Assembly (NCBI RefSeq): GCF_002954405.1
Contig: NZ_MQWC01000004.1
Location: 2,407,909 to 2,471,908 of the forward strand
Source of the DNA: Salinibacter sp. 10B
GTDB lineage: Bacteria; Bacteroidota; Rhodothermia; Rhodothermales; Salinibacteraceae
Reading direction: 5' to 3'
DNA: 64,000 bases
Shown here: positions 40,595-42,486 of the stretch, in pieces
How positions within the stretch are numbered: the stretch's first letter is position 1
Layout of the letters: each line of letters starts with the position of its first letter
Program-made: the position numbers and the translations under genes
The notes under the pieces: model-generated
The model's input: only the letters and a program-made list of their open reading frames with translations
What the model was told of the DNA's origin: nothing
The model's database searches: none

Positions 40595-41389
40595 TTACGC
40601 CGGCGGCGACTGCCGAGCGGGAGAGAAGTAGGCCGTGCGCCCCGAGACCTGTTCGGTTTCGAGCGGCACACCCGTGTCCGGGCATCGTTCGTCGCCGTAG
40701 CGGTGGGGAAGCATGAAGCGCTCCGGATCCAGCGCCGTGGGATCGGACTCCACGTCGATCGCTGCGTCGAGGACGACCTGGATGGCGTCGTAGAGGCTCC
40801 GCAGGTTGGCCTCCGAGAGTTCGGGCACGGTCGTGGCCGGGTGGATGCCCTCCTGGTACAGTGCTTCGTCGGCGTAGATGTTGCCGAGGCCGGCCACCAC
40901 TTGTTGGTCCAGCAAACGGCCCTTGATGCTGCCGCGACGGCCCTCCAGTTGCTCAAGGAATGCCTCTACGTCCACCCGGCGGGCATCCGGCCCCAGTTCT
41001 TTTTCTTCCAGGAAGGCCTCCGGCGTATCGATGAGGCGCACGCGGGCAAACTTGCGCGGGCAGACGAATGCGAGGTGCCCCCCGTCCTCGAAGTGCAATT
41101 GGATATACGCGTACTCGGACGGATCACCATTCTCTACGATTTCCACTTTGCCCGTCATGCCGAAGTGGAAGGCCAGCCAGCCGGTCTCGTCCCCGTACTT
41201 TGCGAAGACGTGCTTGCCGTGGCGGTGCGTCTCCGTCAGTGTCTGTCCGGAGAGGACCTCGTCGAACCGGTGGGGCTCCACGCCAGCGAGGATGCGCGGG
41301 TCGACGACGTTGGTCTGTGCAATCTTCCGGTTCAGGGCTCCGTCGGCGATGCGGCGCCGGTAGACGACATTGTCGGGCAACTCGGGCAT
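40595..41389 (-). CDS. mutM: Fpg/Nei-family DNA glycosylase lacking the zinc finger ligands
   Basis: 264 residues. The catalytic Pro-Glu pair follows the initiator Met (PELPDN), the conserved Lys is in HGKHVFAKY, and the helix-two-turns-helix is GRLLDQQVVAGLGNIYADEA. These mark an enzyme that excises oxidised bases such as 8-oxoguanine or FapyG. The C-terminal zinc finger, normally Cys-x2-Cys...Cys-x2-Cys, is HRYGDERCPDTGVPLETEQV followed by SGRTAYFSPARQ: only one Cys remains while the DNA-contacting Arg is kept. It is thus a zinc-less finger, as in some other Fpg/Nei proteins. First gene of a unit with the DUF72 gene. Confidence 0.87.
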   Translation of the reverse strand: MPELPDNVVYRRRIADGALNRKIAQTNVVDPRILAGVEPHRFDEVLSGQTLTETHRHGKHVFAKYGDETGWLAFHFGMTGKVEIVENGDPSEYAYIQLHFEDGGHLAFVCPRKFARVRLIDTPEAFLEEKELGPDARRVDVEAFLEQLEGRRGSIKGRLLDQQVVAGLGNIYADEALYQEGIHPATTVPELSEANLRSLYDAIQVVLDAAIDVESDPTALDPERFMLPHRYGDERCPDTGVPLETEQVSGRTAYFSPARQSPPA

Positions 41390-41429: not shown

Positions 41430-41517
41430 GAGGCCTATAGCCACAATTCCCGCAGGCCTTTACGACCAACCGCCGCCAGGCTTCCACGTCCTCGTCCCCG
41501 ATCGCGCCCAGTTGAGC

Positions 41518-41561
41518 AAAAATAAAAATGCCCGCCTCTTCCGGGGAGGAGAGAGGCAGGC
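41518..41561 (-). terminator. Rho-independent terminator of the candidate RNA
   Basis: On the minus strand GCCTGCCTCT pairs with AGAGGCGGGC (10 bp with one mismatch) across a 12-nt loop, followed by ATTTTTATTTTT. A TATTTTTG also present in the T tract might serve as a -7 box for mutM, but no -33 box is seen. Confidence 0.75.
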
Positions 41562-41976
41562 GTGAGATCGCGTTTCTCGAACGGGTTGATTACGGTCGCT
41601 TCGGTAATCCTCGCTCTGCAGAGCAAGTGACGCCGGTGAACCCATTCGTCGCGACGGAGCACTGCTATACGAACGCAGTGTCCTCAGCAATTTTCCGACT
41701 GCAGACGACGATCCGCCGCCCCCTCGCGGAGCGGGCGATCGTCCCGGGTCAAATCGGCTGCACGGCGGGACGAAACGCCCCGGTTGTGAGCCAGAATGCG
41801 CCGGCGACGCCAGGCGCGGCGGGGAGTCGGAAGCGTGGGAAAGAACGCGTTCATGTAACATCATCGGGTGGTTCGGGAAATCAGTGAGGACCGGCGAGCC
41901 GTGGCCCGTCCGATCGCGCCTTCAGACCCCCAAGGACGACCCTGAGTTTTCAAGCTTTCGTGGAGGAAGCGATTCC
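41518..41976 (-). ncRNA. Candidate structured non-coding RNA
   Basis: No protein gene lies here, but on the minus strand the region between a TAnnTTTG box (41983-41990) and a terminator (41518-41561) is highly structured. Reading 5' to 3': hairpin GACGATC/GATCGTC (41707-41743), hairpin GGACACTGC/GCAGTGCTCC (41656-41683), then a long-range helix pairing CGAATGGGTT (41639-41648) with AACCCGTTCG (41578-41587), extended by GTCGCG/CGCGAT. That helix encloses GCTCTGCAGAGC (41613-41624) and GATTAC/GTAATC (41588-41609). RNase P, tmRNA and SRP signature sequences are absent; 6S RNA is possible but unproven. The 5' end is inferred and may be further in. Confidence 0.5.
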
Positions 41977-41982
41977 GTCACA

Positions 41983-41990
41983 CAAAGGTA
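41983..41990 (-). promoter_or_regulatory. Putative Bacteroidota-type -7 box
   Basis: TACCTTTG on the minus strand is an exact match to TAnnTTTG. A TTTTC tract lies about 16-19 nt further upstream where TTTG would be expected, so the -33 box is weak. It would start transcription into the structured region near 41976. Confidence 0.4.
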
Positions 41991-42059
41991 TCACAGATTG
42001 AGCCGAAAACCGCTTCCACGTCCCGGCATCGTCCCAACGAGATGCCTACAAGCCCAAGG

Positions 42060-42133
42060 GCCTCCGCTTCTCAACCAACCAATTCACAAACGGAGGCTTT
42101 CGGTTTGATTTTCTATTGCATCGGGAACCTTTC
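42060..42133 (+). promoter_or_regulatory. Inverted repeat and putative rpsT promoter
   Basis: GCCTCCG (42060-42066) and CGGAGGC (42091-42097) form a 7-bp inverted repeat followed by TTTCGGTTT. TTTG at 42104-42107 and AACCTTTC at 42126-42133, 18 nt apart, approximate the TTTG/TAnnTTTG promoter. The start codon of rpsT is about 95 nt further on, leaving a leader in which S20 autoregulation could act. Confidence 0.35.
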
Positions 42134-42228
42134 CCCTGCGCGGAATCTTGTGTGTTCATTGCGACTCGCCCACATCCCTGTGGACGAGCACGACCATAAC
42201 AAGCTCACCGACCCCAGCGACACACACC

Positions 42229-42486
42229 ATGCCCACGCACAAATCGGCCAAGAAGCGCGTTCGCCAGAACGAAAAGCGACGCAAGCAAAACCAGTCCCGA
42301 AAGACCCGCGCCCGAACCAAGATCAAGAAGCTCAAGTCCACCGATGACCCGGAGGCCGCACGGGAGCTCCTGAACGACGTAAAGGGCGACCTGGACGGCC
42401 TCGCGGCGAAGGGCATCATTCACAAGAACCGCGCCGCCCGAAAGAAGAGCAAGCTGGAGAAGTACGTGGACAACCTCGACGCGTAG
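42229..42486 (+). CDS. rpsT: 30S ribosomal protein S20
   Basis: 85 residues from the ATG at 42229. The very basic N-terminus MPTHKSAKKRVRQNEKRRKQ, followed by KTRARTKIKKLK, and the C-terminal KGIIHKNRAARKKSKL are the S20 signature. It binds the 5' and 3' minor domains of 16S rRNA during 30S assembly. The in-frame upstream extension to 42148 is not part of the protein. Single gene, ended by the hairpin at 42521-42555. Confidence 0.96.
   Translation: MPTHKSAKKRVRQNEKRRKQNQSRKTRARTKIKKLKSTDDPEAARELLNDVKGDLDGLAAKGIIHKNRAARKKSKLEKYVDNLDA

Follow-up and report, generated by a model that had tools for sequence, protein, structure and literature searches.

SgrS/SgrT and SR1/SR1P are dual-function small RNAs, in which one transcript is both the messenger of a small protein and a regulatory RNA. 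6S RNA, represented by the Rfam models RF00013 and RF01685, forms a long irregular hairpin with a central open bubble, and unannotated bacterial small-ORF (sORF) genes are a further point of comparison. Here we set against these systems the minus strand between mutM (40595-41389, minus strand) and rpsT (42229-42486, plus strand) of Salinibacter sp. 10B, with positions given in the window, i.e. the whole stretch of 64,000 nt that was analysed. A sequence-only reading had taken this spacer to hold no protein gene and had proposed a structured RNA, either a diverged 6S RNA or a new RNA class. Comparison with a Salinivenus MAG (G008, JAHENZ010000178.1) points instead to a small-protein gene, unannotated and restricted to this lineage, whose monocistronic minus-strand mRNA would carry a structured leader and a 56-codon ORF; we consider this reading likely. 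All comparative claims concern these two genomes, and with only two sequences every inference depends on a single comparison.

Between mutM and rpsT there is probably a minus-strand transcription unit that ends in a terminator. In the proposed mRNA, a conserved structured 5' leader would be followed by the 56-codon gene and then by an intrinsic terminator upstream of mutM, as in the following features, given from 5' to 3' on the minus strand:

41965-42017, minus strand: conserved hairpin of 18 pairs with an 11-nt bulge and a CUUU loop, enclosing the TACCTTTG box (from identity, alifold and pairing)
41983-41990, minus strand: TACCTTTG, candidate -7 promoter box, identical in G008
41886-41955, minus strand: mid-leader, diverged in sequence (39/71), possibly with a related fold
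41855-41885, minus strand: stretch immediately 5' of the start codon, conserved at 26/31 positions
41684-41854, minus strand: ORF of 56 codons plus stop, predicted to encode the small basic protein MNAFFPTLPTPRRAWRRRRILAHNRG... (from dN/dS, codon-position mismatches, permutations and a coding-segment test)
41566-41656, minus strand: 3' untranslated region of the long-range helix, with no alignable counterpart in G008
41518-41561, minus strand: intrinsic terminator, its stem at 41530-41561 followed by a U-rich tail (-23.5 kcal/mol, z -5.2)

At the DNA level, 60 relatives and 244 genomes of the class were searched, and the block turned up in one other genome, G008, where it has the same mutM/rpsT setting and 74% identity over about 345 bp. 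Between the two genomes the spacer outside the block mostly aligns poorly or not at all, and the block is therefore under constraint. In other members of the genus, mutM was not found within 1.5 kb around rpsT. Several short DNA matches were set aside: one (L005) sits in an apparent coding region, and the others (L004, L006-L008 and L041) were taken as chance. A protein search of the class at E<=1 gave no third member, G008 alone being significant and the rest weak Arg-rich matches, and searches of GTDB genomes, viral contigs, phages and plasmids returned nothing beyond G008. Over the class, the hairpin model R2 recovered the two known loci and one weak match (E 0.025), and no others.

Comparison of the two genomes shows selection at the protein level on the predicted reading frame. 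In G008 the ORF has the same frame, start, length and stop position, with no indel in 171 nt; the stop codon itself differs, TGA against TAA. Because an in-frame stop lies just 5' of the ATG in both genomes, this ATG is the only reasonable start. The two predicted proteins share 40 of 56 residues, nucleotide differences are distributed 11/10/27 over the three codon positions (p 1e-4), and dN/dS ranges from 0.17 (NG86) to 0.29 (YN00). When the substitutions were permuted, an equally conservative protein arose in 0 of 5000 permutations and the frame was broken in 81%. A coding-segment test over the block was significant for the minus strand (p 0.002) but not for the plus strand (p 0.36). Coding on the plus strand was rejected, since the antisense frame with a similar codon pattern has stops in both genomes and the test there is not significant. 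Codon usage is itself uninformative and not clearly gene-like: in both genomes the ORF frame outscores the other two on its strand, but in the window an antisense frame comes out slightly ahead. A frame kept by selection in relatives is the mark of a bacterial small-protein gene, and it was found here in one relative. The premise that no protein gene lies between mutM and rpsT therefore fails, because the largest conserved element in the spacer evolves as a protein.

The same two-genome comparison shows that the fold of the predicted leader hairpin is conserved, and that this holds for the minus strand alone. Across 41956-42020, 58 of 65 columns are identical to G008, and the 18-pair hairpin with its bulge is predicted to form as minus-strand RNA in both genomes. 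In an alifold column-shuffle test the hairpin region reached z -3.96 on the minus strand (0/100 shuffles), compared with -0.5 on the plus strand, and its alifold score is the lowest of 180 sliding-window scores across the mutM-rpsT region. All cells of the hairpin (100%) are paired, compared with 39-53% when it is slid along the alignment. One change in the stem keeps its pair (U-G/C-G), and the other four changes between the arms fall in the bulge; no pair is changed on both sides between the window and G008, so that the two sequences show no covariation proper. The several minus-strand hairpins described from sequence do exist in the region, and conserved structure of an RNA type is present in its 5' part.

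The conserved inverted repeat could alternatively be a DNA operator or promoter element around TACCTTTG, serving the small gene, and not an RNA fold. The box sits inside the repeat and fits the -7 consensus of Bacteroidota (PMC7366714), and the two genomes agree completely over 38 bp around it; we give this alternative somewhat less than an even chance. Against it, G-U pairs contribute to the pairing, whose significance is limited to the minus strand. Moreover, no TTG or TTTG was found at the expected -33 distance from TACCTTTG, although the Bacteroidota -33 element is not always detectable (PMC7366714), and the motif is not enriched: with 7 occurrences of TANNTTTG in the window and 5.8 expected, the box by itself gives no evidence of a promoter. 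The promoter box of the sequence-only reading is confirmed as a sequence on the minus strand. Because the box is located at the tip of the 18-pair hairpin, its promoter role is only that of a candidate; either TACCTTTG is a promoter and the 5' arm of the hairpin is untranscribed, or transcription begins further upstream and TACCTTTG belongs to the leader. A second match to TANNTTTG, TATTTTTG (41517-41524, minus strand), falls within the terminator's U-rich tail, 5' of mutM, and could be a mutM promoter or chance.

On the plus strand, the rpsT leader (42098-42228) contains blocks conserved in G008, namely TTTGATTTTCTnTTGCATCGGGAACC and a CTC.CCCAC/GTGG.CGAG hairpin, in whose vicinity alifold z values lie between about -3 and -3.6; several other members of the genus also have a GGGAAC-like motif 5' of rpsT. 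The region may hold the promoter of rpsT together with an autoregulatory leader. At 42060-42097, between the two divergent units, the window also has a 15-nt inverted repeat, 80% complementary, with none reported in G008.

Within the leader that we propose for the small gene, the mid-leader may keep a related fold despite its sequence divergence, less firmly than the hairpin. Its own predicted hairpin (GAUCGG..CCGGUC, 41889-41915) has a tip 8 nt shorter in G008, and its alifold z was -4.6 in one alignment and about -2.3 in another, a value that varies with alignment and framing. Downstream of the ORF, the long-range 10-bp helix with a 6-bp extension, a central element of the proposed RNA, does exist (arms 41578-41587/41639-41648, within a -34.6 kcal/mol fold of 41566-41656, z -2.4), but it lies between ORF and terminator in the window only, and G008, the sole relative, has no alignable counterpart of it, a kind of loss that the earlier reading had itself named as counting against its RNA. 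The rho-independent terminator recognized by the sequence-only reading is borne out, and both genomes have one after the ORF, 122 nt past the stop in the window and about 25 nt past it in G008, the two being unrelated in sequence.

These observations also bear on the proposal of a new class of non-coding structured RNA in which the ORF would be coincidental. Nearly all shuffles of the 473-nt minus strand fold less well than the strand itself (z -2.5, with -1.3 for the plus strand and -2.3 for G008), the leader hairpin is conserved, and an Rfam search, one of the checks suggested by the earlier reading, matched no family at the locus. Such a class would be expected to show covarying structure free of coding constraint; what was found is a coding signal in the ORF, a non-significant fold of the ORF part (z -1.3), 3' helices that are not conserved and lie outside the conserved sequence, and weak covariation, with no hairpin pair changed on both sides and two sequences only. 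We therefore regard a new non-coding class as quite improbable.

Known structured RNAs fare no better as explanations. RNase P, tmRNA and SRP RNA were rejected at this locus, as they had been from sequence, since the genome's own copies are located elsewhere. A diverged 6S RNA shares with the locus the situation of an unassigned transcript candidate in a genome where the Rfam models detect no other 6S RNA. RF00013 and RF01685 have no match in 14 Rhodothermia genomes (the window genome and 13 relatives), so either 6S RNA is missing from the lineage or it has diverged beyond what these models recognize. At the locus itself, neither genome yields a 6S match even at E 10, the two-sequence consensus fold consists of local hairpins and has none of the 6S architecture, and a coding ORF lies in the middle; the chance that this is a 6S RNA is negligible.

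With a small-protein gene as the preferred reading, the two predicted products can be described from composition. They contain 14 and 13 Arg in 56 residues, with a predicted pI of 11.9-12.0 and a net charge of about +7.5. No protein match was found in Pfam, NCBIfam, PDB, phages or plasmids, and PHROGs gave one marginal match (E 0.014, spanning 18 residues), with just one of the two proteins as query. AlphaFold predicts a helix at residues 11-35 with low confidence (pLDDT 62). Because family and structure matches are lacking and this confidence is low, the function is a guess; the composition would suit binding to nucleic acid or to the ribosome.

We hypothesize that the minus-strand unit is transcribed and its ORF translated, that the leader hairpin adjusts how much of the small protein is made, by acting on translation or on transcript stability, and that the protein, probably an Arg-rich helix with a flexible tail, would bind nucleic acid or the ribosome. 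If translated, the gene would give this salt-loving lineage one more small orphan protein, a strongly basic one, possibly under the control of the conserved leader hairpin. More generally, what looks like a structured non-coding RNA in a GC-rich genome can turn out to be a small gene, and a single relative can reveal it.

Measured against SgrS/SgrT and SR1/SR1P, the locus is alike in offering a terminator-ended transcript of a few hundred nucleotides that combines structure with a small ORF, and it differs in that a trans-acting role is hypothetical here. The transcript might, like them, encode a small protein and act as a regulatory RNA through its conserved 5' structures: the leader hairpin and the mid-leader fold lie on the ORF strand, the 5' part is nearly unchanged (58/65) and the unit has its own terminator. 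A structured leader suffices to explain these features, and only two sequences are at hand, so that we think this unlikely. The fuller version, a lineage-specific Salinivenus dual-function RNA joining a 5' hairpin RNA module to a new-family 56-aa Arg-rich protein, perhaps ribosome- or nucleic-acid-binding, we would give a similarly small chance. The closer likeness in our preferred reading is to unannotated bacterial sORF genes, with which the locus shares a short conserved ORF in a presumed intergenic region, its own terminator and restriction to a lineage; it differs from them in a predicted product of no known family and in an unusually conserved structured leader.
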